Shown here in pieces: positions 1,149-13,051 of a DNA stretch of 21,683 nucleotides. The notes under the pieces are model-generated. The model did not search any database and was not told where the DNA came from. It was given only the letters and a program-made list of their open reading frames with translations. The position numbers and the translations under genes were made by a program. This DNA is from a virus. The stretch's first letter is position 1; each line of letters begins with the position of its first letter. The stretch lies in IMG/VR virus record IMGVR_UViG_3300037258_000817, positions 1-21,683 of that record; one strand, 5' to 3'.

Positions 1149-2344
1149 ACGACCTGGCCGGGCATCGTCAACGCGATAGCCACGTCACGGACCCAGATGT
1201 CGGTATCGCTGAGCAGGAAGGTCTCGCCGCTCCAGGCCTGCAGCAGGGTCTGGCCCATGATCGAGGCGATGGCTTCGGCAGCCGGCGGCAGGCTTTCGCC
1301 TGACACAGCGCCAGCGGTTTCGTCCCAATTCAGGACGCCACGGCCACCTTTGAAGGTCTCGCCACGAGGGTCTGCGACAGAGAAAGCGCCATTGGTGGGT
1401 CCGCTGCGGCCCGCTACCGTGCCGCTGGGCTGTTCCCATGCGGTCACGCCATAGGGGCCCTGCCGATACTCCGTTTCAGGCATCAGGCCGAAGTCGCGCA
1501 TCACGCCGTTCTCGATGATGTACTTCTCCAGCGACCGCCAGTCGGATCCGGCTTCGACGAAGGCGAGGCGTACCCAAGTCTTCCATTGGAGGCGGGGGAT
1601 GCGGTGCATCGGCCCTGAACTCAGGTCGCCCGGGAGTGCGAAGCGTTCCAGAACGCGGCCCACGGGCAGCAACGGCTTCTTGCGTGGCTGGTAGAGGAAT
1701 GGGGGCACCTTCTCCTGGTGACGCGCCACCAGCAGGAACCGCTTCCGGCTCTGGCCAAGGCCGCCGAGCTCGCCGCAGTCGTGCGTCGTCAGCGCAACGG
1801 CGTAACCATAGTGTTCAAGCATGGACCGTATCTGCTCCAACAAATGGCGGCCACGGCTCTGGATCAGCGGGACGTTCTCGAGCAGGAAGAACTCGATGGG
1901 GTCGTCCTTATAGGCCTCCAGGGTCAGCCAGATGCCACGCAAGGTGAGACGGTTGAGCGCCTGATACTTGTCGCTGACGCTGCGGTTGCTGCTCAACAGC
2001 CCGGAGAAGCCTTTGCAGGGCGGCGAGGTGAACAGGATGTGTGGGCGCTCGCCACCGAAGGCGCGGATCACGTCCGCCGGCGTCGCCTCGTGCCAGTCCG
2101 CCGGCGGCTGATGGCCATGCCAAGCGACGTATTGCTCCCTATCGAACAGGTCCATGACGGTGCCGCGACCAGGACCGGCAGCGTTGAAGTCGGCGATGCA
2201 CGCCGGGACGCTGTCGATACCGCCGATACAACGGTACGTGCCGACCATATTGCCGACGCGGGCCTGTCCACGGTTGAATCCCTTCTTGCCGCCACCGAGG
2301 CCGCAGTAAAGGTGGGCGTGGCGGATCTCGCGGTAGTCGATCAT
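1145..2344 (-). CDS. DNA (cytosine-5-)-methyltransferase
   Basis: A 399-residue C5-cytosine methyltransferase, which transfers a methyl group from S-adenosylmethionine to cytosine C5 in a specific DNA sequence. Motif I-like HLYCGLGGGKKGF lies at residues 11-23 (SAM binding), the catalytic loop TSPPCKGFSG at 106-115 contains nucleophile Cys110, ENV is at 156-158, and LGQSRKRFLLVA around 196-207 matches motif VIII (QxRxR). The C-terminal half would hold the target-recognition domain and includes an SGTVAGRSGPTNGAFS stretch. No restriction endonuclease partner is visible, so it looks like an orphan phage enzyme, probably for self-protection against host restriction. The ATG overlaps the stop of the preceding small gene (ATGA). 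Confidence 0.93.
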   Translation of the reverse strand: MIDYREIRHAHLYCGLGGGKKGFNRGQARVGNMVGTYRCIGGIDSVPACIADFNAAGPGRGTVMDLFDREQYVAWHGHQPPADWHEATPADVIRAFGGERPHILFTSPPCKGFSGLLSSNRSVSDKYQALNRLTLRGIWLTLEAYKDDPIEFFLLENVPLIQSRGRHLLEQIRSMLEHYGYAVALTTHDCGELGGLGQSRKRFLLVARHQEKVPPFLYQPRKKPLLPVGRVLERFALPGDLSSGPMHRIPRLQWKTWVRLAFVEAGSDWRSLEKYIIENGVMRDFGLMPETEYRQGPYGVTAWEQPSGTVAGRSGPTNGAFSVADPRGETFKGGRGVLNWDETAGAVSGESLPPAAEAIASIMGQTLLQAWSGETFLLSDTDIWVRDVAIALTMPGQVV

Positions 2345-2667
2345 GCTGAACCTCTCAAGCTGCGGAGTGGATGCCGGTTATGCGTGAAGGTGCAATTGAA
2401 CCCCGAACCTTCATCCAGAAGTTTCATCAGGCGATCTGCTTCATCGCCGTAGTTGCTGCCGTTGCTGCGGACACGAATGTGATAGTTACGTGCTGAAGTC
2501 CTATGTGGGTAGAACACCAAGTGCACACCGGGTTTCCGATAGACGAACGCTTCATAGTCATGGATGCCCCACTCCAGAGTTCCACCGTCATCAGTCAACA
2601 GCTTCCGAGCGAGCTCAAACTCTCTCTTGTAGAGCTTGTGATACTTGCCGGCGTTCGCGTCAGTCAC
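2341..2667 (-). CDS. Hypothetical protein immediately downstream of the DGR reverse transcriptase
   Basis: A 108-residue protein starting with GTG at 2667; the GTGA junction overlaps the RT stop, so translation is probably coupled to RT. The sequence (YHKLYKREFELARKLL at the start, then GVHLVFYPHRTS and YHIRVRSNGS) suggests an alpha/beta fold rich in Tyr, His and Arg. I do not recognise the family. Its position between the DGR RT and a DNA methyltransferase raises the possibility of a DGR accessory protein, but there is no direct evidence, and the methyltransferase gene is equally tightly linked on its other side. Confidence 0.75.
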   Translation of the reverse strand: MTDANAGKYHKLYKREFELARKLLTDDGGTLEWGIHDYEAFVYRKPGVHLVFYPHRTSARNYHIRVRSNGSNYGDEADRLMKLLDEGSGFNCTFTHNRHPLRSLRGSA

Positions 2668-4088
2668 TGAGCTCTCCTATAGGTCTTGGTGATCTCGCCA
2701 TTGACCATGCGGCCGCGGCGTAATACGGCTCTGCCCAAGGCGATGCGGTCGTTGAGGCTGACCTCGGCCTGGCCGATGAAGCCGAAGTAGCTGTTGGCCG
2801 TCTCCATGAGCTCGTCATCGGGCACCGTGGCGATGGCTTGCACGGCCTTGCGGACGGTGCGCCGGCGGGTGATGCGGCCCTCGGGACGGATGACCTGGCC
2901 GACGAAGTCGATGCCGCGACGGCAGGGATAGAGCAGGGTCTTGGTGGGATTGAGTTCAAGACCGAGCGTGGGCAGGAACAGGTTGACGTCGGCCAGCACG
3001 GCATTGAGCCACTGCGGCGACTTGCCCAGGACTACGAAGTCATCGACGTACCGCACATAGTGCTTGGCCTTGGCGCGGTGCTTGAGCCGCTGGTCCAGCG
3101 GGTCGAGGATGACGTTGGCGAAGAACTGACTCGGCAGGTTGCCGATGGGCAGGCCGAAGCCTGCAGGCTGGTTGATGAGGCGCTTGTAGGTCGGGACCTT
3201 GTCCAGAACCTGCAGGTCGCCCCGGGTCTCGTAGTTCTCGCGGCAATCGTGCCAGAGGATGGTGCCGCAGAGACCGAGCCACCACGGCTCGTGGATCTTG
3301 GCCTTGAGCAGGTCCCATAGGACGCTCTTTTCGATGCGGTTGAAGAAGTTGGACAGGTCACACTTCAGGTACCAGGCCGGCACGGTCCAGTCCTGGGTGA
3401 TGCTGCGGGCATGGCGATCCAGGCGTTTGGCGGCATAGAGCGTGCCGCGCTCTTTCATGCACGCACTACTGCCGACCGCGAACGCGCGCTCGAACCGGGG
3501 CCCGATGCGGTTATAGAGCAGGTGGTGGACGATGCGATCGCGGAAGTCCGCCGCCCAGACCTCGCGGAACTTGGGCTGGCTGATGCCGAAGCAGATGCTG
3601 CGGCCGGGGCGGTAGGCCCCACTCAGCAACTCCTCATAGAGTTCGACCAGGTTGTGTTCGAGGCGGACCTCGAACCGGAGGGCGCTGTGTGTGTTGCGCT
3701 TGCGCTTCCGGCAGTCGTAATAGGCTCGGTAAAGCTCCTCGAAAGAAGGAGCAGCATGGCTGGCTTGGTGTGTCTCTTCGGACGACGAGTGCCCGGTTGC
3801 TGTTGTTCTTGTTCCAGTTGTTCGTGTTGCCGGAACTGAAGTTCTGGTTCCACGCGTAGTTGGACGAGTACTGCGTCTTGTCATGCTTTGGGCATCGCCG
3901 GGCAGAAAGCCTAAGCTGATCTGTCCGGAAACTGCGCCAGACCTGCCGGCAGAGCCGGTGGTATCTGGTTCTCGCGAGGCGGTGGCCACGGGTACCCGTT
4001 GGCCAGCGGCACGACCAGAGTCACTGTAAGCACGGTCCTGCTCGGCTTGCCGGTCAGGATGCTGGCTTGGTGATTTTTGCTTGTTCAC
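2664..4088 (-). CDS. Diversity-generating retroelement reverse transcriptase
   Basis: RT that copies the template RNA into adenine-mutagenised cDNA. The domain runs from about SFEELYRAYYDCRKRKR (residue 115) to the C-terminus. Motif A is LKCDLSNFF (Asp244), LPIGNLPSQ lies at 313-321, and the catalytic YVDD is at 347-350. The [ILV]GxxxSQ form of motif 4, instead of QGxxxSP, is a hallmark of DGR RTs over group II intron RTs; no maturase or endonuclease domain follows. The start is uncertain. GTG at 4088 overlaps avd by 35 nt and has a GGAAA-like site upstream. The ORF then runs through the template repeat (residues about 71-104), giving an unusual Thr/Arg-rich N-terminal region. An in-frame ATG at about residue 69 lies just before the TR; I see no ATG, GTG or TTG between the TR and the RT domain. 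Confidence 0.95.
   Translation of the reverse strand: MNKQKSPSQHPDRQAEQDRAYSDSGRAAGQRVPVATASREPDTTGSAGRSGAVSGQISLGFLPGDAQSMTRRSTRPTTRGTRTSVPATRTTGTRTTATGHSSSEETHQASHAAPSFEELYRAYYDCRKRKRNTHSALRFEVRLEHNLVELYEELLSGAYRPGRSICFGISQPKFREVWAADFRDRIVHHLLYNRIGPRFERAFAVGSSACMKERGTLYAAKRLDRHARSITQDWTVPAWYLKCDLSNFFNRIEKSVLWDLLKAKIHEPWWLGLCGTILWHDCRENYETRGDLQVLDKVPTYKRLINQPAGFGLPIGNLPSQFFANVILDPLDQRLKHRAKAKHYVRYVDDFVVLGKSPQWLNAVLADVNLFLPTLGLELNPTKTLLYPCRRGIDFVGQVIRPEGRITRRRTVRKAVQAIATVPDDELMETANSYFGFIGQAEVSLNDRIALGRAVLRRGRMVNGEITKTYRRAQ
3779..3876 (-). repeat. DGR template repeat (TR), 98 nt
   Basis: On the minus strand the TR reads ACGCAGTACTCG... and ends ...GCACTCGTCGTCCG. In the frame of the targets it contains ten AAC codons (Asn), the classical DGR template codon, whose first two positions can be mutated without ever creating a stop. 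Homology to the three variable repeats starts at ACGCAGTAC and extends to GTCGTCCG plus a few weakly matching bases (to about 3772). It lies between avd and the RT domain, inside the extended RT reading frame but in a different frame from the targets. Of 31 adenines in the TR coding strand, 11-13 are substituted in each VR. Confidence 0.96.
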
Positions 4089-4428
4089 TGTTTTTCCACG
4101 CCGTTGCTTGCTTCCCCATGCTCACCAGTAGAGGGATCGCCTGCTTGTGATGGCTAGGCGCACACAATCCCTTGTCCTTGACGAACCTGAGGATGGTCTC
4201 CATCCTCGACACGTGCTTCTGGATCTGCCTGAGGTGTTCCACGCGGACCTTATGGTCGGTCTCGGTGTTGACGTCGAAGATCAACGACATCGCCTCAAAA
4301 TGCTCGTCCTGGAGCTTGGTGCCGTAGCGCCGGTTGTATGGCCGGCGCATATTCACGGCAATGACATCTACTACGTCGAAGAGCTTGTAGCCCGTCTGAT
4401 AGATTTCCGTGTCGCTATGCAGACCCAT
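4054..4428 (-). CDS. avd: Avd-like DGR accessory variability determinant
   Basis: A 124-residue, mostly helical, basic protein, MGLHSDTEIYQTGYKLFDVV..., with NMRRPYNRRYGTKLQDE in the middle and a heptad-like C-terminal half (VEHLRQIQKHVSRMETILRF). Size, helical content, basic charge and position directly before TR and RT match Avd, which forms a pentameric four-helix-bundle barrel that binds DGR RNA and RT and is required for mutagenic homing. The ATG at 4428 has only a weak AAGG upstream, so translation may be partly coupled to the target gene ending 40 nt before. Its 3' end overlaps the GTG start of RT. Assignment rests on pattern and context. Confidence 0.88.
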   Translation of the reverse strand: MGLHSDTEIYQTGYKLFDVVDVIAVNMRRPYNRRYGTKLQDEHFEAMSLIFDVNTETDHKVRVEHLRQIQKHVSRMETILRFVKDKGLCAPSHHKQAIPLLVSMGKQATAWKNSEQAKITKPAS

Positions 4429-4448
4429 GCTGCTAAAACCTTAAAAAC

Positions 4449-4464
4449 CGAATGGATGAATTAC
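4449..4464 (-). repeat. Conserved element 3' of VR1
   Basis: On the plus strand this reads CGAATGGATGAATTAC. It lies 36 nt from the VR1 3' edge, just after the stop codon, and is repeated identically after VR3 and with one change after VR2, but is absent beside the TR. It may be part of the homing-site context that marks a recipient VR. Confidence 0.6.
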
Positions 4465-4468
4465 CGAA

Positions 4469-5098
4469 TTACCGCCAGACTCTGCGGACGACGAGTGCCC
4501 GGCCGCTGTAGTCCTTGCCCCAGTAGTCCGTGGTGCCGGAACTGAAGCCCTGGTTCCACGCGCAGTAGGACGAGTACTGCGTGCTGGACCAGTACACGTC
4601 CTTCTCGAACAGGTGGCCGACGTTGGCAAAGACCTGGTTGAGCTCACAGAGCGCGGGCAGGTAGCAGTCATGGGCGCCGGCGGCCTGGATGGCCACGACG
4701 TCCATGGCGAGCTGACTGCCGGCTTCGGCCATAGCCTTGGTATTGACGGTGCCGTCGCGGAGCGAATCCGCACCCTTGATCTCGGTGGGGTAGCAGCCCC
4801 ACTGACGGTCCTTGAGGACCACGGGCTTGCCATCGGCACCGGTGACCACCACGAGGTCGTAGATGCGGCCGTCCTCGGCGCGGCACTCGGCAGCGCGGAT
4901 GCCGCCCTGTGCGGGCCAGGGATCGCCCAGCGAGGGTAAGTCATCGATGGAGGCGATCGAGCAGAACATCGGCAGCAGCCTGCTGAGGCGCGGACCGCGC
5001 ACGTGCTCCATCAGAGCTTCGGCGACGACATCATGCGGCGCCTTCATGGCAACGCCGCGGTGGCTGAACTCGAAGACCTTTTCCTGTTCCTGATTCAT
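4469..5098 (-). CDS. DGR target protein 1, C-type-lectin-like (DUF1566-like) variable protein
   Basis: A 209-residue protein whose last 37 residues are the diversified segment. The ATG at 5098 is preferred (AAGGGAG 8 nt upstream) over an upstream TTG. Residues 1-58 are an extension unique to this paralog; from about 59 it shares with the other two targets a core containing GGIRA, YDLVVVTGADGKPVVL, DGTVNT and CYLPALCEL. The end, YWSSTQYSSYCAW... to GRALVVRRVWR, follows the WSST...W...F.SG...RxVR pattern of DUF1566/C-type-lectin folds used by DGR ligand-binding proteins. Variable residues fall in 173-205. It follows ssb and precedes avd, the usual place for a cognate target. There is no signal peptide or virion motif. 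Its ligand is unknown. Confidence 0.9.
   Translation of the reverse strand: MNQEQEKVFEFSHRGVAMKAPHDVVAEALMEHVRGPRLSRLLPMFCSIASIDDLPSLGDPWPAQGGIRAAECRAEDGRIYDLVVVTGADGKPVVLKDRQWGCYPTEIKGADSLRDGTVNTKAMAEAGSQLAMDVVAIQAAGAHDCYLPALCELNQVFANVGHLFEKDVYWSSTQYSSYCAWNQGFSSGTTDYWGKDYSGRALVVRRVWR
4485..4582 (-). repeat. DGR variable repeat VR1 (target 1)
   Basis: This 98-nt repeat aligns to the template at 3779-3876 without gaps. It has 13 differences, all at template adenines on the coding strand; for example AAC codons became TAC, GGC, ACC, GAC, TAC, GGC, GAC, TAC and GGC. One AAC (in AWNQ) is unchanged. The downstream bases CGCAGAGTC (against CGAAGAGAC in the TR) are shared with the other VRs and mark the likely initiation-of-mutagenic-homing boundary. 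Confidence 0.96.
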
Positions 5099-5115
5099 GT
5101 GTTGCTCCCTTGGGT

Positions 5116-5568
5116 TCAAAACGGAATGTCGTCGTCTACGAATTCGCCGCTGCCGGCGGGTTCGCTGGCTGGGGAAGCACTGCGGCTGGTTTCCTGGCGC
5201 CCAGTCGGTGCCCGGCTCTCGCCGTCCTGCTGCCCGCGACCGCCCAGCATCTGCATCTCGTCCACCATGATCTCGGTGACGTAGTGCTTCTGCCCTTCCT
5301 TCTCGTAGTCGCGGGTACGCAGGCGGCCCTCTATGTAGAGCTGAGAACCCTTGCGCACGTACTCGCCGACGATCTCCGCCAGGCGGTTATAGAAGGTGAG
5401 CCGGTGCCACTCCGTGCGTTCCTTCTTCTCGCCGGTCTGCTTGTCTTTCCACGACTCGTTGGTCGCAGCGGAGAGGTTCACGACGGCACCGCCAGAAGGC
5501 ATGTACTTGATCTCCGGATCCTTGCCGACAGTCGCCACCAGGATCACTTTGTTGACGCCGCGACTCAT
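5116..5568 (-). CDS. ssb: Single-stranded DNA-binding protein
   Basis: A 150-residue SSB. Residues about 4-110 form an OB fold: [20 protein letters not shown] near the start, then [28 protein letters not shown] and [17 protein letters not shown] Ser/Gly/Pro-rich linker leads to the acidic tip DDDIPF, the conserved tail that recruits replication and repair partners. It coats single-stranded DNA during phage replication and recombination. Its ATG overlaps the stop of the KTSC gene (ATGA). Together with the exonuclease and annealing-protein genes upstream it completes a phage recombination module. Length is slightly below bacterial SSB (about 178 aa). Confidence 0.97.
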
Positions 5569-5795
5569 GCCGGCACCTCCTGCGGTTCCACCTTGGTGCT
5601 GGGGAACTTGTTGCGGATGTTGGCCGAGAAATAGCCACCCACAGACGGTGCGGTGACCATGGCTTCGTGGATCTCGGATGACACGCCGTCGTAGCGATAG
5701 ACGGTGCCATTCTTGAACTCGACCTCAAGGACCTGCAGCACAGGGTCATAGCCCACGGCGGCGATGTTTGAAGATGTGACAGCAGCGCGGTTCAT
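5565..5795 (-). CDS. KTSC-domain-like small protein
   Basis: A 76-residue protein with [20 protein letters not shown] followed by [20 protein letters not shown] and [14 protein letters not shown]. The order 'SxxIxxVGYDxxxxxLEVxFxxGxxYxYxgVP...F...SxGxyFnxxIR' is the KTSC domain, a short beta-rich domain common in phages and sometimes fused to other enzymes; its function is not established. Its start overlaps the end of the exonuclease gene (ATGA) and its stop overlaps the ssb start, so it is translated within the recombination block. Confidence 0.88.
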
Positions 5796-7342
5796 GCGGC
5801 CTCCGATGAGATGATGTGGTGATCGCGCAAGACCGCCAGCAGGCCGTTGTAAGCCGATGGCGTGACCTTGTGCTTCTTCTTCCAGGTGTCCAGATCCGCT
5901 TCCAACGTCGCCGACTGGGCTGGCGCGGGGGCGGCCGCTATCTGGGATGGAGCGGCAGCAGCCGGTATCGGCGCAGCTGCAACGGCGGCCACCGGCGCGG
6001 TTGGCACAGGCTGGGTTGGCGCAGCCGCAGCTGCCGCGGCCAGCTGTTTCCGTTCCTCGGCAGACTTGTGTTCGGTGATGCGGCCCTTCACCACGGCTTC
6101 AAGGTCATCCGGTGCCTTGAACACCAACTGACCGCGATCTGCGAACAAGGTCTCGAACCCTGCCGAGAGATCATCCAGACGCTTGAAGTTGGAGCGCACC
6201 TTCTCGGTCAGCGCGTTCACCTCCAGCTTTAGCCTGGTGACTTCCTGGTCCACGGCGTCCCGCAGGCTCTTGATGGACTTCTTGCCCTTCATCACGCCGG
6301 CGAAGTCAGTCACCGGGATGTTCGATGGCGCCAGGACGCGGTGCGGCAGACCGTCATTGAGAGTCTTTACGTGGGTCTCATACCGGGTCTTGCCATCAGC
6401 CAGGATCTCTTCACGGATCGCTTGCTTACGCGAGGTGACCGACTTCTCCAGCAGCAACCGTTTGGCGCGGGCCTGCTCCTTGAGCTCGTCGATGGTGCGG
6501 AAGAGTTCGTCGATGGTGATGGTCTGCCCCAGTACGTTCTGCTTCACGCCTTCCAGCCGCTCCTCGACCTCTTTGCACCACTTGGTAGTGGCCTCGGCCG
6601 TGGCGAAGTCTTCATCGGTCTGCAGGTCGGTGCGGATGGCCGACAGGATCTCGGTGGCCTTGGCCCTGAACGCCACCAGGTTCGTGCCCGTGACTTCGCC
6701 CTTCACGTTGGCGAAGAGCATGGGCAGCGTCTCCGGGGCGGAGCCAACCACCACAGCGGCTTCGGGCGGCGGCGTATAGGCCGCCAGGTCCTGCTCGAAC
6801 AGCGCCCAGCCGGCACGGAGAGCGGCCTCGTCAGCCGGGTCCAACGTGACCCACATATGGACGGTACGTTCCTCGGTGCCATCGGATACCGTGTATAGGC
6901 ACTTGGTGGCGCGGCTGATTGCCAACTGCTGCACGACCTGCCACTTGTCTTCGATGGGCAGCTCGCCGGCACGGACACGACGCGCCTTGTCCTCGTTCCA
7001 CTGCTTACCTTCCCAGATCACTTCTTCTAGCAACGTGATGCCGTCGAAGCTGGCAGAGAGCTTGCCGTCGTCCTCACGCCCGGTGGCCGGGAACAGCTCG
7101 TCGCCGATGATCTTCTCGGCGATGACGCGCGCTAGGGGTTCGACCTCATGGCCACGGTCGAACACGCTCTGGGTGAAGGAATTGACCTCGCGCTCTGCGC
7201 CAGTCGCCTTCATCCGCAGCAGGTCGCTACGGCTCACATAGGGGCTCACTCCCATCACGGAAGGCGCTTCCGAGGCATTGAGATATTGGGCGCGGTGGGC
7301 GTGCCACTCCGGGCTGCCCTGGACCAGATTGAGGGTCTTCAC
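5792..7342 (-). CDS. YqaJ/lambda-Exo-type viral recombinase exonuclease with long C-terminal extension
   Basis: A 516-residue protein. Residues 1-190 are a PD-(D/E)xK YqaJ nuclease: GSPEWHAHRAQYLNASEAPS at 9-28, RGHEVEPLAR at 63-72, Asp100 in ASFDG, Glu111 and Lys113 in WEGKQW, then QLAISRATKCLY. The spacing of Asp100, Glu111 and Lys113 matches the lambda exonuclease D-E-K triad, so a 5'-3' double-strand exonuclease feeding the neighbouring annealing protein is expected. The protein is much longer than lambda Exo (226 aa). Residues about 230-430 look coiled-coil, followed by an Ala/Pro-rich linker and a small C-terminal module (LDTWKKKHKVTPSAYNGLLA). Its start overlaps the stop of the upstream gene. 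Confidence 0.93.
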   Translation of the reverse strand: MKTLNLVQGSPEWHAHRAQYLNASEAPSVMGVSPYVSRSDLLRMKATGAEREVNSFTQSVFDRGHEVEPLARVIAEKIIGDELFPATGREDDGKLSASFDGITLLEEVIWEGKQWNEDKARRVRAGELPIEDKWQVVQQLAISRATKCLYTVSDGTEERTVHMWVTLDPADEAALRAGWALFEQDLAAYTPPPEAAVVVGSAPETLPMLFANVKGEVTGTNLVAFRAKATEILSAIRTDLQTDEDFATAEATTKWCKEVEERLEGVKQNVLGQTITIDELFRTIDELKEQARAKRLLLEKSVTSRKQAIREEILADGKTRYETHVKTLNDGLPHRVLAPSNIPVTDFAGVMKGKKSIKSLRDAVDQEVTRLKLEVNALTEKVRSNFKRLDDLSAGFETLFADRGQLVFKAPDDLEAVVKGRITEHKSAEERKQLAAAAAAAPTQPVPTAPVAAVAAAPIPAAAAPSQIAAAPAPAQSATLEADLDTWKKKHKVTPSAYNGLLAVLRDHHIISSEAA

Positions 7343-8277
7343 GGTGCACCCCCTTGGGCCGGCGCGAGGCCGCGGATGGCGGTCTTCTGCTCCTCGGTGA
7401 GCGCGACCTTGGTATCGACCATGGCGATGATCTCGTCCGGTGTCTTTTTCTTACCGGCGATCAGCGGGCGCCATGTCTCCAGCTTCTCCTTGAACTCGGC
7501 TTCGGTGTAGACCGGACGCACTGCCTTGGTGCCCGTGGATTCGCCGAAGGTCTCTTCGACGGTCGTATCGCCCTCCTTGAGGGCGGTAACTAGGCCGCGC
7601 AGAGTGACCAGATCATCCCCGGTGATGTCCTGGATGCCGGCGCGGCCGAGCTTGGCCAGGACCTGAGCCTCGGTGGCGCCGAACTTCTGGAGGTAGGCCA
7701 CGGCATCGGCGCGGCGGTTGGCCAAGGTCTTGCTGTCGCCTACGACGACCTTGCGCGTCGCATTGTAGACCTCGTTCCAGAACGATTTGGGGATGCCCTT
7801 GAAGACGGCGTTACGCAGCGCTATGGAAGCGGCGGCGTTCCCGGTCACGGCAATCATGTCGGCTTTGAAGCGGCGACCGTGTTTATCCACGATGCGGCGC
7901 CTGACTTCGAAGGCGATGGCGACGTTCTTCTCCAGGTCGTGGAACACGCCCTGGGCAGTCACGAAATCGCCATCCTCGCCGATGACTCTGGCGCCAGCCC
8001 GGCAGTTGCCCCAGGCCGAGGCTGCGATCTCCGCGAGACGTGCTGACGGACCTTCGATGGTCTTGCCGTCACGCGGCAGCGCGTAGATGCACCCGGCCGC
8101 GATCTCTTCATTCAACGTGGCCATATCCGTGGCCTCGTCGATGAAGCGCTTGATGCTGCGCGGATAGGCATGGGCCGTGGCGATCTGCTGATCGATGTCG
8201 GCTCGTGTCATGGCCTGAAGCGCGCTGAGGTCCGGACCGGCCGAAACCTCGCGCACTTCGTCTTGTCTTGTACTCAT
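7339..8277 (-). CDS. Probable phage single-strand annealing / recombination protein
   Basis: A 312-residue protein; ATG at 8277 has GGGAGA 5 nt upstream, and the longer open frame extending upstream to 8532 antisense-overlaps target 2 in another frame and is rejected. Recognisable stretches are IEGPSARLAEIAASAWGNCR, GEDGDFVTAQGVFHDLEKN, ITGNAAASIALRNAVFKGIP-like and ADAVAYLQKFGATEAQVL. I recall these from a conserved phage family that accompanies YqaJ exonucleases and is taken to be a RecT-like annealing protein. The functional call rests mainly on that context, since no catalytic motif would be expected. The exonuclease gene starts 4 nt before its end. The C-terminal tail is acidic with a PDEIIAMVDTK segment. 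Confidence 0.7.
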   Translation of the reverse strand: MSTRQDEVREVSAGPDLSALQAMTRADIDQQIATAHAYPRSIKRFIDEATDMATLNEEIAAGCIYALPRDGKTIEGPSARLAEIAASAWGNCRAGARVIGEDGDFVTAQGVFHDLEKNVAIAFEVRRRIVDKHGRRFKADMIAVTGNAAASIALRNAVFKGIPKSFWNEVYNATRKVVVGDSKTLANRRADAVAYLQKFGATEAQVLAKLGRAGIQDITGDDLVTLRGLVTALKEGDTTVEETFGESTGTKAVRPVYTEAEFKEKLETWRPLIAGKKKTPDEIIAMVDTKVALTEEQKTAIRGLAPAQGGAP

Positions 8278-8296
8278 CTGAATCTCCCGGAATGAC

Positions 8297-8312
8297 CGAA
8301 TGGGTGAATTAC
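8297..8312 (-). repeat. Conserved element 3' of VR2
   Basis: Plus-strand CGAATGGGTGAATTAC, one base different from the copies after VR1 and VR3. It lies 37 nt from the VR2 edge and overlaps the stop codon of target 2, so it is kept although the codons between VR and stop differ from the other two targets. Confidence 0.55.
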
Positions 8313-8920
8313 TGAGCCTGGATGGGGACTCTGCGGACGACGAGTGCCCGGAGGCTGTAGTTCTTGTACCAGCGGTACGTGAGGCCGGAACTGAAGGTCT
8401 GGTACCACGCGTAGGTGGACGAGAACTGCGTCGAGGACCACAGCCATTCCTTGGGCAGCAGGTCACGGGCATGCGCGAAGGCAGCCTGCAGCTCGCAGAG
8501 CGCGGGCAGGTAGCAATCGTCACCGAGGGCACGTACGGCCTTGGCCAGAGGGCTGCCGGCGGCGATCATGGCGTCGGTGTTGGCGGCGCCGTCGTTGAGC
8601 GAGGTCGCACCGGTCACGTCCTGGCCGTACTCGCCCCAGCGCTGGCTGTTCAGCACGATGGGCTTGCCATCGGCATCGGTGGCCAGCAGCAGGTGGTAGC
8701 CGGGCTTGCCGTTCTCACCAGCGAACTCGCCGATGCGGATGCCGCTCTGGCCGTCCCAGGGCTTGCCGATGGCGGGCACGGCCGCAGAAGCCAGCACCAC
8801 CGCCGATGCGGCTAGGGGCTTGCTGACGCGCGCGCGGCGCTTGGCTACGGCACGCTTCTTGGTTGCATGCCGGCGGACCGTGGACTTCTTCTTGATGCGT
8901 TTCTTGGTGCTAGTGGTCAT
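8309..8920 (-). CDS. DGR target protein 2, variable lectin-like protein with Lys/Arg-rich N-terminus
   Basis: A 203-residue paralog of the other targets. The start at 8920 is well supported by AAGGAG 6 nt upstream. The first 34 residues contain 16 Lys/Arg (for example TKKRIKKKSTVRRHATKKR), then a hydrophobic Ala/Val stretch (LAASAVVLASAAVPAIG, 36-52), then the shared core (GKPWDGQSGIRIG, DADGKPIVL, CYLPALCEL) and the variable end (residues about 164-196), finishing RALVVRRVPIQAQ. The N-terminus could be a long signal peptide or membrane anchor, or a nucleic-acid-binding tail; I cannot decide. It lies between the MarR gene and the annealing-protein gene, 4 kb from the RT, so it is a remote target. 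Confidence 0.9.
   Translation of the reverse strand: MTTSTKKRIKKKSTVRRHATKKRAVAKRRARVSKPLAASAVVLASAAVPAIGKPWDGQSGIRIGEFAGENGKPGYHLLLATDADGKPIVLNSQRWGEYGQDVTGATSLNDGAANTDAMIAAGSPLAKAVRALGDDCYLPALCELQAAFAHARDLLPKEWLWSSTQFSSTYAWYQTFSSGLTYRWYKNYSLRALVVRRVPIQAQ
8334..8431 (-). repeat. DGR variable repeat VR2 (target 2)
   Basis: This 98-nt repeat aligns to the template without gaps. All 13 differences fall at template adenines: one TAC became TTC and AAC codons became ACC, TAC, ACC, CTC, TAC, CGC, TAC, TAC and CTC, while one AAC is kept. This codon spectrum differs from VR1 and VR3, consistent with independent mutagenic homing events. Confidence 0.96.
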
Positions 8921-8929
8921 GGCTACTCC

Positions 8930-9334
8930 TTAGGCGGCTGCGGCGAGTGCGCCGTGGATTTCGGGTGATACGCGCTTGAGGTTCTGGTTGTGGGCGTCGG
9001 CAAGCTGCTCCAGGGCCTCGGCGCCCTTCTCGGTGAGCGAAAGCGATGCCACGCGGCGATCCGCCGGCGTCCGCAGGCGCTGCACCAAACCCGCGCGCTC
9101 GAGGCGGTTGATGAGGCCGACGGCGCTGTTGTGCCGGACACCGACCTTGTCGGCGAGGGCGTTCATGTTCAGGTAGTGGTCGGTATCGGCCGTGCCGATG
9201 ACCAACATCGCCCGGTACTGCTTGGGCGTGACCTTGTGCTCGCGCAGGATTTCCCTGCTCGCGCTTTCGAAGTCGCGCAGAGCGGTGACGAACACGGCCT
9301 GGTGGCGTGTGGCTTTGCTGGCAGTAGCGTTCAT
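8930..9334 (-). CDS. MarR-family transcriptional regulator
   Basis: A 134-residue winged-helix protein. The ATG at 9334 has GAGGAA 4 nt upstream, and the ORF further upstream overlaps the preceding small gene. Recognisable MarR elements are KVTPKQYRAMLVIG (helix before the wHTH), MNALADKVGVRHNSAVGLIN (recognition region), RLERAGLVQRLRTPADRRVA (wing with the DxR motif) and SLTEKGAEALEQL. MarR proteins are dimeric DNA-binding regulators, often ligand-responsive. Its stop overlaps the ribosome site of target 2, so it may be co-expressed with, and possibly tuned to, that variable protein. What it controls is unknown. Confidence 0.9.
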   Translation of the reverse strand: MNATASKATRHQAVFVTALRDFESASREILREHKVTPKQYRAMLVIGTADTDHYLNMNALADKVGVRHNSAVGLINRLERAGLVQRLRTPADRRVASLSLTEKGAEALEQLADAHNQNLKRVSPEIHGALAAAA

Positions 9335-9341
9335 GGATTCC

Positions 9342-9533
9342 TCATGCCGCTTCAGGCGGCTCGGGTTGATGAGGCGCCGGTCGATGCCGACGCAGGAAAA
9401 GAGGGATGGGCGGCTCGTTGGCCGGCACCAAGCAGGGATGACCGTTGACCTGGCGCACGGTATGGCCGGTCTCTGCAGCCATGCGCTTGGCTTGGTCAGA
9501 CCGGACATGCGGCAAGATGCGGATCGTGGTCAC
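9342..9533 (-). CDS. Small hypothetical phage protein (63 aa)
   Basis: A 63-residue protein beginning with GTG at 9533 (MTTIRILPHVRSDQAKRMAA...), with AGGAG about 9 nt upstream. It ends 7 nt before the MarR start. The C-terminal part is Pro/His/Arg-rich (PLFLRRHRPAPHQPEPPEAA). No family is recognised. A 26-codon open frame ending at 9530 overlaps its start (GTGA) and a strong inverted repeat sits just upstream, which suggests regulated translation. Confidence 0.6.
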   Translation of the reverse strand: MTTIRILPHVRSDQAKRMAAETGHTVRQVNGHPCLVPANEPPIPLFLRRHRPAPHQPEPPEAA

Positions 9534-9610
9534 GTCATGCTCCTGTTAGAAATGGCGGCGTGGGTGCGTGAGGGGTACACGCGGGCCCAGAGGATGGGGA
9601 GAAAGGCCAT
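9530..9610 (-). CDS. Possible 26-aa leader peptide
   Basis: An ATG inside the inverted-repeat region opens a 26-codon frame (MAFLPILWARVYPSRTHAAI...) whose TGA overlaps the GTG start of the next gene. No clear ribosome site precedes it. It could be a translationally coupled leader or chance; the GTGA junction matches the style of this operon. Confidence 0.25.
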   Translation of the reverse strand: MAFLPILWARVYPSRTHAAISNRSMT

Positions 9611-9621
9611 CCCACGCCGCC
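9554..9621 (-). promoter_or_regulatory. Structured intergenic RNA candidate (11-bp inverted repeat with inner hairpins)
   Basis: GGCGGCGTGGG at 9554-9564 pairs perfectly with CCCACGCCGCC at 9611-9621. On the transcribed minus strand the 46-nt interior can form a GATGG/CCATC hairpin and a GCGTG/CACGC hairpin, giving a three-way-junction shape. It ends about 11 nt before the AGGAG of the next gene. There is no U-run, so it is not a simple intrinsic terminator. Pairing was found by eye only. Confidence 0.45.
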
Positions 9622-9630
9622 GTGGACCTG

Positions 9631-10086
9631 TCAGTGCGTGGCGTTTCCGCCCTCGCCGATGAGGGCGCGCTGGTTCGGATCCGGTTGGACCGCATCGGCA
9701 CCGCTCATATGGGCGTCAGCATCGATGAACACCACCAGCACAGATTTGCCGACGGCATCGGCGAGGAACTGGGTGGAACCCGTGTCCTTGGGAAGCTTGA
9801 GTACGGCCTTGATGCCGTCTTTGAGCACCAGCTGTTCGAGGGTCGCCATGGCATTGGCGCGGTCATCGCTGGCCAGGAGCTTCGTGGCCTTGGTTACGGC
9901 CTGGCGCAGGCTCATCTCGATGCGGTGGATGGCATCGGCCTGCTCTTCTTCGGTCATGGCCTGCCACGGTTTCTGCATTACCACGAGTTCCTGATGGACC
10001 AGTTGCATCAAGCTGCCGAGCAAGGTGTCGCTCGTCATCTTGTCGATGGTCTGCTGCTGGGACTGGGCGTGGGTCGTCTTTGACAT
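9631..10086 (-). CDS. Hypothetical phage protein (151 aa)
   Basis: A 151-residue soluble protein starting MSKTTHAQSQQQTIDKMTSD; ATG at 10086 follows CCGGGAGATCAGC. The N-terminal half is helical (LLGSLMQLVHQELVVMQKPW, then MTEEEQADAIHRIEMSLRQA); the C-terminal half has LVFKDGIKAVLKL-like and VGKSVLVVFIDADAHM segments suggesting a short alpha/beta part. I do not recognise the family with certainty. Its ribosome-site region closely resembles the one in front of the annealing-protein gene, which also follows a DGR target gene, so this junction may have been duplicated together with the target cassette. Confidence 0.75.
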   Translation of the reverse strand: MSKTTHAQSQQQTIDKMTSDTLLGSLMQLVHQELVVMQKPWQAMTEEEQADAIHRIEMSLRQAVTKATKLLASDDRANAMATLEQLVLKDGIKAVLKLPKDTGSTQFLADAVGKSVLVVFIDADAHMSGADAVQPDPNQRALIGEGGNATH

Positions 10087-10111
10087 GCTGATCTCCCGGG
10101 AATTATGAAAA

Positions 10112-10127
10112 CGAATGGATGAATTAC
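10112..10127 (-). repeat. Conserved element 3' of VR3
   Basis: Plus-strand CGAATGGATGAATTAC, 36 nt from the VR3 edge, identical to the copy after VR1. The identity with the VR1 side is continuous for 54 nt (10112-10165 against 4449-4502), running through the stop codons into the VR. Confidence 0.6.
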
Positions 10128-10131
10128 CGAA

Positions 10132-10626
10132 TTACCGCCAGACTCTGCGGACGACGAGTGCCCGGTGGCTGTCGTGCTTGTCCCAGTAGTCCGTGAAGCC
10201 GGAACTGAAGTACTGGATCCACGCGAGGTTGCCGGAGTACTGCGTGTTCGACCACAGGTCTTCGTCGTCCTCGACTTGGACCAGGTCAGGCAGCAGGGCG
10301 CGGACGATGTTGGACTCGCCGATGCTGGGCAACGTGCAGTCGGTCTGGCCGTCGACGGTCGCGATCGCGGCAGCGGCTTTGGAGAGCTCGTGGCCGGCGG
10401 CGAGCAGCGCCGTGTGATTGGCTGTGCCATCGGTGAAGTTGTCGGCGCCCTCGACCTCGGTGCCGTAGAGGCCCCACTCGGCGGCATCCAACAGCACCGG
10501 CTTGCCGGCGGCGTCGGTCACGACCACCAGGTCATAGCTACGGCCATCGGCCGTCGGGATCTCGGCGCCAGCGCGGATGCCGCCCTGACCCTGCCACTGT
10601 TCGCCAATCTTCGGTTTGTCGCTCAT
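10132..10626 (-). CDS. DGR target protein 3, minimal C-type-lectin-like variable protein
   Basis: A 164-residue protein, the shortest of the three targets. The ATG at 10626 is chosen because GGGAGA lies 5 nt upstream; a longer frame to 10692 would overlap the preceding gene. It starts almost directly with the shared core: GEQWQGQGGIRAG, SYDLVVVTDAAGKPVLL, DGTANHTALLAAG, then CTLPSIGES in place of CYLPALCEL, and ends LWSNTQYSGNLAW... to RALVVRRVWR. With no N-terminal extension, signal or anchor, it defines the minimal DUF1566-like diversified unit. Variable residues are about 128-160. It is the first target transcribed from PL, more than 6 kb before the RT domain. Confidence 0.9.
   Translation of the reverse strand: MSDKPKIGEQWQGQGGIRAGAEIPTADGRSYDLVVVTDAAGKPVLLDAAEWGLYGTEVEGADNFTDGTANHTALLAAGHELSKAAAAIATVDGQTDCTLPSIGESNIVRALLPDLVQVEDDEDLWSNTQYSGNLAWIQYFSSGFTDYWDKHDSHRALVVRRVWR
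10148..10245 (-). repeat. DGR variable repeat VR3 (target 3)
   Basis: This 98-nt repeat aligns to the template without gaps. Eleven differences are at template adenines (for example AAC to ATC, TAC, TTC, GAC, TAC, GAC, CAC, GAC, CAC). Four more, at 10227 and 10232-10234, are not at adenines and cluster near the 5' (coding) end of the repeat, where TCG-TCC became TCC-GGC. This end may lie outside the tract replaced in the last homing events. Confidence 0.94.
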
Positions 10627-10649
10627 CGTCGTCTCCCGGAGTGCTTGCG

Positions 10650-10868
10650 TCAGTGCGACGCGGTGTTGAGTAAGTCGGTGGACCGGCGCCAACCGCCGAA
10701 CGTATAGATTTCGAGGTGGCCGCCGCAGATACGACTGAACGGCACCTGGCGCGGGTCCTGGTTCTGCACGATGTAGTACGGACTGACCCGGGCCTTGCGC
10801 ACGACGGCGTTCACGAGGTCGGCGCGTTTCGCGGCATGGCCGAAGTCGTACAGCATGGGCGCGGCCAT
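10650..10868 (-). CDS. Small hypothetical phage protein (72 aa)
   Basis: A 72-residue protein starting MAAPMLYDFGHAAKRADLVN; the ATG at 10868 overlaps the preceding stop (TGATG) and has GGAGAG upstream, while a GTG one codon earlier is also possible. It contains KARVSPYYIVQNQDPRQV and GGHLEIYTFGGW, suggesting a small alpha/beta fold. No family recognised. It ends 23 nt before target 3. Confidence 0.65.
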   Translation of the reverse strand: MAAPMLYDFGHAAKRADLVNAVVRKARVSPYYIVQNQDPRQVPFSRICGGHLEIYTFGGWRRSTDLLNTASH

Positions 10869-11218
10869 CACGTCTCTCCGCCGTTGAAGAGATCCCAGGC
10901 CCGGCCCTCGAGATGGAGAGCCACGTATTCGGAACGGCGCACGTTCACGACTTCATCGCGGGCGCCTTGCAGGAGCCGCGCGATCTCGAAGTGCTGGTCA
11001 TTGGCCAGGGCGGCTTCGAGTGCGGAACTGCGGAGGCTGCTACCAGCCAAACGCTCCAAGACCTGAGCCAAGGCGACATCGGCAGCTGGGAATTTGGTGA
11101 TGGCTTCGGCAGCGAGCTCAGTGCGAGCCTGAGCGCCATGCACAGCGAATACGTGTTCGCGCAGCGACTCTCGGTCTTGGGCGGAGCGGATGGTTGCGGC
11201 TTTGGCTTCAGAGACCAT
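10868..11218 (-). CDS. Hypothetical phage protein (116 aa)
   Basis: A helical protein starting MVSEAKAATIRSAQDRESLR. The ATG at 11218 with AGGGAAG upstream is preferred; a GTG at 11311 would add an Ala-rich segment overlapping the previous gene by more than 100 nt. The body (LAAEAITKFPAADVALAQVL, ALANDQHFEIARLLQGARDE, EYVALHLEGRAWDLFNGGET) is amphipathic helix throughout. No family is recognised. It overlaps the upstream gene by 11 nt, in the same leftward operon. Confidence 0.65.
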   Translation of the reverse strand: MVSEAKAATIRSAQDRESLREHVFAVHGAQARTELAAEAITKFPAADVALAQVLERLAGSSLRSSALEAALANDQHFEIARLLQGARDEVVNVRRSEYVALHLEGRAWDLFNGGET

Positions 11219-11489
11219 GGCGGGCTTCCCTGGCCATGGCGTCGCTGCTGGGGCAGCCGCTGCCGCGGTGATCGCTGCGGCAATGCGGGCAGAAGCGTTT
11301 GCTGTCGTCACTCCAGTCCTGGGCGCCGTAGCACACGCGCTCGTAGTGGCTCATCTTGCCGATCTCGGCGACGCACTCGTCGACGGTGGCGGGGGCGCGG
11401 CCGAGACGGTCGTGGATGGCCAGGAACAGGGTGTCGTTGCGGCCATCTAGGGCGCGCGTGGCGACTTCTGTGAAATCCTGGTCTGCCAT
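11208..11489 (-). CDS. Small hypothetical protein with Cys/His cluster, first gene of the left operon
   Basis: A 93-residue protein starting MADQDFTEVATRALDGRNDT; ATG at 11489 is preceded by GGAGCAGGG. The C-terminal half carries ERVCYGAQDW and FCPHCRSDHRGSGCPSSD; the CPHC pair with further Cys and His could bind zinc. It is the first gene downstream of PL, so it would be among the first products made after infection or induction, a position where phages often place regulators or host-takeover proteins. The specific role is unknown. Confidence 0.65.
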   Translation of the reverse strand: MADQDFTEVATRALDGRNDTLFLAIHDRLGRAPATVDECVAEIGKMSHYERVCYGAQDWSDDSKRFCPHCRSDHRGSGCPSSDAMAREARHGL

Positions 11490-11527
11490 GTCCCTGCTCC
11501 AGGCCCGGTAACCCCAGGCATGGAGCA

Positions 11528-11555
11528 AGTATATACGCTAACGCATACTTGTCAA
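11528..11555 (-). promoter_or_regulatory. Leftward early promoter PL
   Basis: On the minus strand TTGACA (11555-11550) is followed after 16 nt by TATACT (11533-11528). The spacer contains the 20-bp operator. It points at the first left-arm gene (start 11489) and is the only clear promoter found for the whole left arm including the DGR. Confidence 0.85.
11529..11548. promoter_or_regulatory. Operator OL (20 bp, imperfect dyad)
   Basis: GTATATACGCTAACGCATAC, the exact reverse complement of the element at 12332-12351. The inner 16 bp is a partial dyad (TATACGCTAACGCATA, 12 of 16 symmetric). It covers the spacer and -10 of PL, so bound repressor would block transcription. CI is the likely binder; Cro may share it. 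Confidence 0.8.
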
Positions 11556-11579
11556 TGCAGAAACGTATAATTCAGGTGG

Positions 11580-11601
11580 TAAATTAACCCCCTTGCGGGG
11601 C
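11580..11601 (-). terminator. Possible weak terminator after the repressor gene
   Basis: On the minus strand CCCC-GCAA-GGGG followed by GTTAATTTA, a short GC stem with a GCAA tetraloop and a T-rich tail, about 23 nt after the repressor stop. The 4-bp stem makes it weak. Confidence 0.35.
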
Positions 11602-11623
11602 GCGGGGTCGGGGATGAAGCAGC

Positions 11624-12277
11624 TTATGGTTCGCCGCCGAACCAGACCACCACGCCAGCGATATGGGCGTATAGGCTGAGTTCGACGATTTCATACCTGG
11701 GGTTGATGGGCTTGAGGTACTTCTTGCCGCCATCGACGACGAGCTGCTTGAATGTGGCTTCGTTATCGTGATCGGTGCGGACGACTACGTACTTGCCATG
11801 CGCTGCCTGGACACCGGGGTCGCAGATGATGATGCAGCCTTCCGGGAACTTGGGCTCCATGGAGTCACCGTGGACCCGGAGCGCGAAGCTGCCAGGCCCT
11901 AACTTCTTCGGCACGTCGACCCATTTATCCGCCACCCCGGGCGTGAAAATGTCCATGACTTCCTGTCCTTTACCAGCCTGTACCCAAGAAATCAGAGGAA
12001 CCGAAGTCATAGGGCTGGCTACAGTGCTGGCGTTGAGTAATTCCTCTGTCCCCATCACCTGACCAATCGTGACGTCGAAATAAGCCGCCAAGGCTTCGAT
12101 GGTTTGGGGGTAGGGGCGCTTGCTCTCGCCACTCAGGATCCGTCCCACTGTTGGCTGTTCAAGTTTCGCCTCGGCCGCGAGCTGGGCCTGATTCACCGAG
12201 CCATCACGCTTCAGTAAATGCGGCTTCTTGAGGCGGACCAGGGTCTCGATTGCTGTAGCTGTCTGGGTCTTGGACAT
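11624..12277 (-). CDS. CI/LexA-type phage repressor (HTH plus S24 peptidase)
   Basis: A 217-residue lysogeny repressor. Residues about 28-76 form an HTH (NQAQLAAEAKLEQPTVGRIL...). Residues about 92-217 form a LexA/S24 autoprotease: Ala101-Gly102 in WVQAGKGQE is the probable RecA-stimulated cleavage site, Ser139 in HGDSMEP the nucleophile and Lys177 in TFKQLV the general base. All key residues are present, so SOS induction by self-cleavage is expected. It faces away from the Cro-like gene and is flanked by identical operators at PL and PR. No strong promoter of its own is obvious between 12278 and 12331, so activation or weak maintenance transcription is likely. Confidence 0.95.
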   Translation of the reverse strand: MSKTQTATAIETLVRLKKPHLLKRDGSVNQAQLAAEAKLEQPTVGRILSGESKRPYPQTIEALAAYFDVTIGQVMGTEELLNASTVASPMTSVPLISWVQAGKGQEVMDIFTPGVADKWVDVPKKLGPGSFALRVHGDSMEPKFPEGCIIICDPGVQAAHGKYVVVRTDHDNEATFKQLVVDGGKKYLKPINPRYEIVELSLYAHIAGVVVWFGGEP

Positions 12278-12324
12278 GACCTATTGTCCCGGGCCGACCG
12301 TGTCTTGAGAAATGCGGTAGTGAA

Positions 12325-12352
12325 TTGACATGTATGCGTTAGCGTATATACT
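12325..12352 (+). promoter_or_regulatory. Rightward early promoter PR
   Basis: TTGACA at 12325-12330 and TATACT at 12347-12352, spaced 16 nt, the same architecture as PL. The operator fills the spacer. It drives the Cro-like gene (12383) and the replication arm. Confidence 0.87.
12332..12351. promoter_or_regulatory. Operator OR (20 bp)
   Basis: GTATGCGTTAGCGTATATAC, reverse complement of the copy at 11529-11548. It overlaps the PR spacer and -10. Only one full site is visible at each promoter, unlike the triplet operators of lambda. Confidence 0.8.
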
Positions 12353-12382
12353 AAGGCTGTCATCAACATCAGCCCGGGACTC

Positions 12383-12586
12383 ATGAACGCCAGCCGCACC
12401 GTCAAAGCGATCCTCGATAAGGGCAAGACCCAGGAGGACATCGCGACATATGTGCGCAAGACCACCGGCAACCGTCGGTTCAGTCAGGCGACTGTTAGCC
12501 GGATAAAGAACGGTGCCGACACCAGCTTCACGGTAGGGCAGGCGCTCGAGAAATTGCATGACGAGGTATCCAAACAGGCGGCGTAG
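12383..12586 (+). CDS. Cro-like helix-turn-helix regulator
   Basis: A 67-residue basic protein, MNASRTVKAILDKGKTQEDI..., with an HTH: KGKTQEDIATYVRKTTGNRR then FSQATVSRIKNGADTSFTVG. The second helix SQATVSRIKNG is a typical XRE-type recognition helix. Being the first gene after PR, divergent from the repressor and of this size, it is the functional equivalent of Cro, expected to repress PL/PR during lytic growth. A GGGAC sequence lies just upstream of the ATG. Its stop codon lies within the loop of the following terminator hairpin. Confidence 0.88.
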   Translation: MNASRTVKAILDKGKTQEDIATYVRKTTGNRRFSQATVSRIKNGADTSFTVGQALEKLHDEVSKQAA

Positions 12587-12602
12587 TGCCGCCTCTTTTT
12601 TT
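12576..12602 (+). terminator. Intrinsic terminator overlapping the cro stop codon
   Basis: AGGCGGC (12576-12582), loop GTAGT, GCCGCCT (12588-12594), then C and seven Ts. The TAG stop of the Cro-like gene sits in the loop region. It resembles lambda tR1 in position: read-through or antitermination would be needed for replication genes. Confidence 0.87.
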
Positions 12603-12652
12603 ACCCAGAACGCGGCTTACAAGGCATTACAAGTTTCTTGGAGCGTATTGGA

Positions 12653-13051
12653 ATGGAACAGATCTCGCTCATCCATGAGGATATTTACGAGGCCATCCGC
12701 ACCGATGTCATGGCGCTCGGTGGCACCAAAAAGGTAGGCGTGATGCTGTGGCCGGAGAAGTCTGCCGACAAGGCCGGCGAACTCCTGGCGAATTGCCTCA
12801 ACCGCACCCGCAGCGAGAAGTTGGACCCAGAACAGGTCCTCTTCATCGTCTGTGAGGCGCGCCGCATCGGCGGTTATGCCATAGCGACCTTCCAGAACGA
12901 GCGCGCCAACTTCAAAGCCCCCGAACCCATCGAACCCGAAGATGAGCGCGCGCGGCTATACCGTCAGGTCGTCGGCGCTGCAGAAATCTTCAAGGACGCT
13001 ATGGCGCGCCTTGAGCGCCTGCCGCAAGCGAATCAGCCGGTGAAGAGATGA
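12653..13051 (+). CDS. Putative CII-like phage regulatory protein
   Basis: A 132-residue protein; ATG at 12653 has GGAG 9 nt upstream (a TTG at 12638 is an alternative). The stretch GGTKKVGVMLWPEKSADKAG followed by ELLANCLNRTRSEKLDPEQV and LFIVCEARRIGGY looks like an HTH with a helical tetramer-type region as in phage regulators of the CII class found in this position. The second half (YRQVVGAAEIFKDAMARLER) is a helix. Position after the Cro-like gene and terminator, before the replication genes, is where lambda cII lies. The assignment is mainly positional plus weak pattern. Confidence 0.6.
   Translation: MEQISLIHEDIYEAIRTDVMALGGTKKVGVMLWPEKSADKAGELLANCLNRTRSEKLDPEQVLFIVCEARRIGGYAIATFQNERANFKAPEPIEPEDERARLYRQVVGAAEIFKDAMARLERLPQANQPVKR

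Follow-up and report, generated by a model that had tools for sequence, protein, structure and literature searches.

What does a phage diversify when its diversity-generating retroelement (DGR) lies among early genes? In the accessible parts of PMC8144416 and PMC10743442, the main role given to phage DGRs is that of a host-range device on the tail. Here we analyse the IMG/VR virus record IMGVR_UViG_3300037258_000817, 21,683 bases long (hereafter the window, meaning this whole stretch of DNA). Judged from its sequence, the window carries a DGR, in which one cassette of reverse transcriptase (RT), accessory protein Avd and template repeat (TR) matches three separate variable repeats (VRs) at the 3′ ends of paralogous genes, here called targets T1, T2 and T3. 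Taken as a whole, the locus is best explained, with moderate confidence, as an early DGR under the control of a CI-like repressor that would diversify three intracellular or envelope binders. Within this reading, the diversification machinery and its early control are highly probable, and the intracellular, host-factor role of the targets is a tentative assignment. The DGR and its targets comprise the following features, with protein lengths in amino acids (aa):

2664-4088, minus strand: RT open reading frame (ORF) (PF00078, 60.2 bits; phrog_1423, E 3e-104)
3774-3877, minus strand: TR, inside the RT open frame
4054-4428, minus strand: Avd accessory protein (phrog_3206, 'Avd protein of DGR', E 8e-13)
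4469-5098, minus strand: target T1, 209 aa, predicted N-terminal hairpin-helix module and C-type-lectin domain (phrog_4245; AlphaFold model)
4480-4583, minus strand: VR1, in T1, with 15 changes at TR adenines and 0 others
8309-8920, minus strand: target T2, 203 aa, lysine/arginine-rich N terminus and predicted C-type-lectin domain (phrog_4245, E 2.5e-25)
8329-8432, minus strand: VR2, in T2, with 18 changes at TR adenines and 0 others
10132-10626, minus strand: target T3, 164 aa, predicted C-type-lectin domain (phrog_4245; model pLDDT 94.9; PDB matches)
10143-10246, minus strand: VR3, in T3, with 13 changes at TR adenines and 4 others

The RT ORF starts at a GTG codon (4088), with an in-frame ATG (3884) just ahead of the TR, and its translation contains the YVDD motif; its best PDB sequence match is 8ub7 (E 3e-34), which we take to be the Bordetella DGR RT. 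Avd scores 31.8 bits against the Pfam family bAvd, below the cut-off of 40. A repeat finder placed the TR and VR1–VR3 in one four-copy family. In gapless alignments with the TR core, the substitutions in VR1 and VR2 are confined to TR adenines, and the four non-adenine changes in VR3 all lie near its 5′ end; a VR scan allowing up to 25% non-adenine changes recovers VR3, whereas one allowing up to 20% misses it. Over the 104-nucleotide (nt) repeats, TR adenines are replaced by T 16 times, by G 13 times and by C 11 times, and this adenine bias is itself the control for the pairing of TR and VRs. The TR contains ten AAC codons; the peptides of VR1–VR3 differ from that of the TR at 13 positions, ten of which, by our reading, come from these codons. 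The DNA 3′ of the VRs is conserved. The original prediction had placed Avd, TR and RT at one end of the locus together with three VR-bearing targets of 209, 203 and 164 aa; the profile matches, the repeat family and the adenine pattern confirm this arrangement, and the sizes are as it gave them.

Comparison of relatives suggests that VRs of this kind have been rewritten. In T1, the window and the related contig L002 differ at 16 of 34 TR-adenine sites and at 87 of 535 sites in the rest of the gene. The three target genes of the phages Cruim01 and Aurca01 differ at 11, 20 and 15 of 32 TR-adenine sites versus 15/508, 122/514 and 13/496 elsewhere, two genes of Aurca01 and Medea1 at 15 and 15 of 32 versus 5/508 and 31/517, and two genes of Haboob and phPA-G at 13 and 12 of 34 versus 29/386 and 14/482. 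Across these eight gene comparisons, 34-63% of the TR-adenine sites differ, as against 1-24% of the remaining gene (Fisher p 6e-5 to 1e-16, the tests treating sites as independent), and the non-adenine VR sites show 0 to 3 differences per gene. A ninth comparison, of T3 between the window and contig L047, gave 14/34 versus 64/388 (Fisher p 1e-3), with differences at 4 of 70 non-adenine VR sites. By this pattern of substitutions, more than one target per phage appears to have been rewritten, and the variation of VRs against conserved flanks, proposed earlier as a check, was found: the VRs vary strongly between relatives and the flanks much less.

These comparisons bear on whether the DGR has decayed and its VRs diverged long ago, leaving the system in the window without activity. 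Some relatives do keep targets without an RT, and VR3 has its four non-adenine changes; against this, the RT, Avd and target frames are open, YVDD is present, and T1 and T3 vary at TR adenines relative to L002 and L047. We regard decay as highly improbable. The position of the TR is a further regularity of these systems: of 68 loci, 62 have it wholly within the RT open frame and 61 in the same fixed phase, these loci being related and thus non-independent. In the same set, the TR contains a stop codon in the RT frame in 4 loci and in a frame used by neither RT nor target in 27. The N terminus of the RT may be encoded by the template repeat.

When the DGR would be expressed is indicated by the sequences upstream of the targets, which contain these predicted elements:

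11528-11555, minus strand: pL-like promoter with operator-like sequence, at the start of the leftward operon (TTGACA-N16-TATACT)
11624-12277, minus strand: CI-like repressor, helix-turn-helix (HTH) and S24 peptidase (PF00717, E 4e-24; phrog_4)
12325-12352, plus strand: pR-like divergent promoter with the same operator-like sequence (28-nt motif)
12383-12586, plus strand: Cro-like HTH protein, a weak match (PF01381, E 0.009, below cut-off)

The pL-like site lies between the CI gene and the first leftward gene and holds a 22-nt palindrome-like, operator-like sequence, which is repeated with one mismatch past the other end of CI, facing the opposite way. The 28-nt motif (one free position) occurs in two copies, with 0 expected by chance, and the inverted operator-like pair scores 26 against a shuffled maximum of 11. 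Only two sigma-70-like sites were found in 2300-12700, where shuffles average 2.2, so their number is unremarkable. A weak terminator-like site lies inside the operon (minus strand, 5648-5635), in a scan that overall was no richer than its shuffles. Contig L047, whose T3 is 75% identical to that of the window and whose name shares a metagenome number with L002, carries a different sequence in the same two places (score 19 versus 12 in shuffles), and phage QDWS has another inverted operator-like pair (18 versus 12). In the operator-pair search, covering 11 phages with 30 shuffles, only the window and QDWS exceeded every shuffle. By our own reading, the first gene after the L047 sequence starts with a protein sequence similar to that in the window. 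The CI-like repressor flanked by divergent promoters sharing a predicted operator reads as a lambda-type arrangement, with both arms under CI repression. Because the operator-like sequence is shared by both sides of CI, we assign the DGR and its targets to the pL-like operon, and the targets are probably CI-repressed early genes.

On the minus strand, the genes run 5′ to 3′ in the order T3, the phrog_6576 gene, MarR, T2, the phrog_3657 gene, the RecE-like exonuclease, KTSC, ssb, T1, Avd, TR and RT. The genes interleaved with the targets are:

5116-5568, minus strand: single-strand DNA-binding protein, ssb (PF00436, E 3e-36)
5565-5795, minus strand: KTSC-domain protein (PF13619, E 3e-23)
5792-7342, minus strand: RecE-like exonuclease (phrog_7655, E 1e-165; PF09588)
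7339-8277, minus strand: phrog_3657 protein, function unknown (phrog_3657 the sole match; start read by eye)
8930-9508, minus strand: MarR-type regulator ORF (PF12802, E 2e-10)
9631-10086, minus strand: phrog_6576 protein, function unknown (PHROG profile match)

The ssb, exonuclease and MarR genes had all been named from the sequence beforehand; the annealing protein named with them was not recovered, 7339-8277 matching phrog_3657 alone.

This organization suggests how the system might work. On this reading, a temperate phage carries the DGR within a pL operon of the lambda type. In the lysogen, CI would keep this operon silent, and infection or induction would turn it on; RT, Avd, TR RNA and the three targets would then be produced alongside the phage recombination genes, at the time of phage DNA replication. 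Any of the three VRs could receive mutagenic TR copies, yielding progeny with different variants. The targets would be small C-type-lectin binders at work early in infection, in the cell interior or at the envelope, and they would bind a molecule of the host or of a competitor that varies from host to host: a defence protein, for instance, a takeover target, or something made by a superinfecting phage.

The layout is shared by many relatives. The best 80 of 146 matches in a target-sequence search represent 77 loci, of which 76 are new viral loci; these were fetched by their target sequences, and the VR counts that follow are thus no unbiased rate. A related RT is included in the available stretch of 57 of the 76 viral loci, and counting same-strand copies, two VRs were found in 35 of these, three in 18, four in one, one in two and none in one. 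Two to four VRs thus occur in 54 of 57 RT loci, and at least two in 52 of 55 after removal of the duplicates L052, L063 and L113. Among loci found by RT search, L008-L030 (n=23, L028 being the same locus as L007) have one VR in 18 cases and none in five, and L002-L007 have one in L002, L006 and L007 (L002 and L006 are fragments) and two in L003-L005. An Avd homologue is present in all 67 loci having RT and VR. The arrangement is not a one-off: the same layout with two to four targets is common among the relatives found, and a two-target case, phage Magia, is published.

The gene context of the 76 loci agrees with early control where it could be recognized. CI was recognized in 22 loci, always upstream and on the target strand. 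An integrase was recognized in 14 loci and lies downstream in 13 of them, 11 of these having it on the target strand; in the remaining loci, neither was recognized by the reference sequences used. Exonuclease genes (7 loci) and annealing genes (6 loci) mostly lie between targets. Replication genes (9 loci, 8 on the opposite strand) and terminase (3 loci, on the opposite strand) were also recognized, and portal, capsid, tape-measure and tail references gave no match in the flanks of up to 8 kb. The targets lie between an annotated repressor and integrase in Cruim01, Haboob, phPA-G, Magia and QDWS; in LPPA56, the integrase is annotated and the repressor is not. In L004, two targets precede lysis and head genes, and the first genes read, by our own reading, as a Mu-like transposase and MuB. 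A methyltransferase beside the RT was considered as a general anti-restriction context and rejected, occurring in 14 of the 41 loci having 3 kb there.

A FastTree phylogeny covered 138 targets over 117 columns (27 of 135 inner branches starred), trimmed of 38 residues of VR-coded tail. It left out L005, L028, L052, L063, L113, L008-L030, RT-less loci, targets below 85 bits and domains below 90 aa. Label changes on the tree numbered 24 for RT-adjacent targets versus 46 in shuffles (0 of 500 as low), 15 versus 43 for second targets (0 of 500) and 16 versus 19 for distal targets (4 of 500), and on this phylogeny the position of a target in its locus carries history. The three window targets and L002 T1 form their own clade (98), and the target family therefore seems to have expanded within the lineage of the window. 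Among 369 bacterial class genomes, three (the centre G006 included) carry RT relatives at E ≤1e-60, and no close prophage of the window was found there.

Could the targets instead be small virion or receptor-binding components, and the DGR an ordinary host-range device with several tips? Viral DGR targets are structural or of unknown function, and in clades 1, 4 and 6 mostly tail structure proteins, according to the accessible part of Roux et al. (PMC8144416). The PHROG 4245 profile, matched by all three window targets and by 44 of 44 targets scanned, has 583 positions, of which the window targets align to the last third only, so that longer members exist. One structural neighbour of the T1 model among viral models is a 594-aa peptidase-S74-domain protein, a domain that occurs in tail spikes. 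The annotated isolates, however, place the targets in the arm between CI and integrase, away from virion genes, and VRs outside the early targets were absent from Cruim01 and LPPA56 (whole), Haboob (448-50033) and Magia (1-43679 of 44942).

A Polaromonas prophage offers an internal control. The OV174 prophage (L007 and L087), which we take from its matching layout to be record IMGVR_UViG_2609459740_000002, has two related RTs about 33 kb apart, the only case of two RTs in one record among 15 whole virus records searched. One DGR stands with a target of 327 aa, which follows the minor-tail and tape-measure genes at a distance of about 2 kb, past genes of unknown function; the other has three small targets located beyond a ParB-like gene. 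Against its own VRs, each TR shows 0 non-adenine mismatches, whereas its best fit in the other stretch has 37/76 or 34/72 mismatches, the comparison covering the two 13-kb stretches on either side of the middle of the record; the target downstream of the tail genes has an RT and a TR of its own, and the templates do not match. The gene context speaks against a virion (tail-tip) DGR of the BPP-1 kind for the early targets, and we consider virion targets very unlikely. The original prediction had proposed an early function, which the early-type operon and the lack of recognized virion genes beside the targets favour (76 loci, flanks of up to 8 kb, the three terminases lying on the other strand); what the targets bind is something we infer.

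The T3 model has as its best solved match the Legionella Lcl C-terminal domain (Z 13.7, root-mean-square deviation 2.5 over 120 residues), followed by a Bacteroides fimbrial protein (Z 12.5), a Bdellovibrio domain (Z 9.5) and then C-type lectins, which make up most rows at Z 6.6-8.4, a range where the tool warns of chance likeness. A first T1 model, with low confidence in the VR part, gave no convincing PDB match by Foldseek and VIA; a deeper alignment on T3 gave the matches. The T1 model adds a hairpin and a helix N-terminally to the lectin domain. In these models, the VR sits at the C terminus of a C-type-lectin fold.

Several observations weigh against the early-binder reading. The fold rests on a predicted model, and Pfam Lcl_C scores the targets at 15 to 17.9 bits, far below its cut-off of 34.9. 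C-type-lectin domains also occur on virions and cell surfaces, so the fold leaves the place of action unfixed, and PADLOC gave no match for the targets. Nine of the 11 phages lack a standout operator pair, Magia (12) and Haboob (11) equalling the shuffled maximum and seven falling below it, and RT, TR and Avd could have internal promoters missed by the consensus scan. T2 might be exported, since its basic N terminus leads into a stretch of moderate hydrophobicity (1.48 over 19 residues). About 34 residues at this N terminus are rich in lysine and arginine, unlike those of T1 and T3, and no export segment was seen in T1 or T3 by hydropathy.

Export would fit lysogenic-conversion or superinfection-exclusion proteins, that is, lectins displayed on the envelope of the lysogen that block or sense phages or surfaces. 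Besides the N terminus of T2, this alternative draws on the nearest solved fold, since Lcl is a surface adhesin, and on the place of the target genes just after CI, which in lambda is that of rex and sieB. Yet a hydropathy of at least 1.6 over 19 residues is reached by only 11 of 154 viral target homologues, and by our own reading the stretch overlaps the conserved core in ten of them, L070 alone having it in the N-terminal module. The operon also looks CI-repressed, and the PA5oct-kind Pseudomonas phages (280 kb), which also carry homologues, are strictly lytic. We judge exported lectins rather unlikely.

A regulatory role offers another alternative, in which the targets would be regulators or sensors in the lysis-lysogeny decision that bind variable small molecules or peptides. 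The targets do lie near CI, beside a MarR gene in the window or a winged-helix gene in Magia, but this neighbourhood is not conserved among loci: the window MarR protein has no match in any other locus of the set, and the Magia winged-helix protein occurs in five loci including its own. The targets also match no DNA-binding family in Pfam and PHROG profile searches, and such a role is distinctly unlikely. Returning to early binders of host or competitor molecules, the layout of the DGR and its recurrence in many related phages suggest a fast-evolving contest inside the host cell or at its envelope, and the variable residues would mark the binding face, providing a handle on what the targets bind.

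Some phages carry targets alone. Aurca01, Medea1, U9 and PAN70 (a partial genome) have target homologues but no RT match, and in Aurca01 (L036) and Medea1 (L037) the Cruim01 TR matches nothing but target VRs, no TR being found. At the 69 non-adenine positions, the VRs of these two phages depart from the Cruim01 TR nowhere or at one or two sites, and those of Aurca01 differ from those of Medea1. Recent loss, gene exchange with DGR phages and rewriting in trans would all be compatible with this pattern. In phage D3, orf68 (L172 18081-18641) is a target homologue; within the early arm, it is the first gene annotated after cI, and no RT is annotated in the D3 stretch 26000-48000. Apart from 2 nt that the D3 record lacks, which shifts its frame, the gene is identical to that of PMG1 and phi_D3. 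Large Pseudomonas phages (PA5oct, Cassandra, Paride and others) have one target homologue each (for example, L175 6001-6564), which in Cassandra sits among many small unknown genes.

A broader proposal would be that in widespread temperate phages, a CI-controlled DGR uses one template to diversify in parallel two to four early, non-virion, lectin-like binders, an antibody-like repertoire against variable host or rival-phage molecules within the infected cell, and that phages lacking RT and TR, such as Aurca01 and Medea1, have their targets rewritten in trans from another phage or prophage whose DGR has the same TR. In this general form, the proposal is doubtful. If such a class of early non-virion hypervariable proteins is real, phages aim targeted hypermutation at something met after entry, and the isolates Haboob, LPPA56, Cruim01 and Magia, together with the D3 target homologue, make the reading testable now.

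Known systems share parts of this organization. The Burkholderia cenocepacia phage Magia (MT701587) is, like the window, temperate, with Avd-TR-RT in the early arm after CI and small lectin-fold targets; its targets are separated by RecT, nuclease and other genes, the gene families between them differ from those of the window, and its RT shares 58% identity with the window RT over 76% of the query. The Magia announcement reports target sequences in genes 47 and 57, and its accessible text does not name a third VR, which we found in gene 46 (L033 11254-11344) (PMC7883833). The BPP-1 mtd DGR has RT, Avd, TR, adenine-specific changes and a C-terminal VR in a C-type-lectin domain, as in the window (PMC6642488, in part). 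Unlike the window, it has a single target, a tail-fibre protein, and its RT aligns over 65% of the query at 32% identity.

Multi-VR DGRs are already in print, as is the two-target, early-region case of phage Magia. The accessible part of PMC6642488 counts 271 multi-VR DGRs, and that of PMC10743442 cites up to eight targets for Treponema denticola and Stenotrophomonas DGRs. Gut-phage DGRs with tentaclins have two targets and one TR, in the accessible text of the latter paper; these targets, unlike those of the window, are described as receptor-binding, and one has its VR near the 5′ end (PMC10743442). A search of titles and abstract openings, with subscription papers and preprints mostly out of reach, did not find early CI-controlled multi-target DGRs described as a class.

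Elsewhere in the window, an acyl-carrier-protein gene (PF00550, 17043-17291) lies near peptide deformylase and cysteine-dioxygenase-like genes, and a large ORF (17288-19861) has a DNA methylase domain and weakly matches a helicase.

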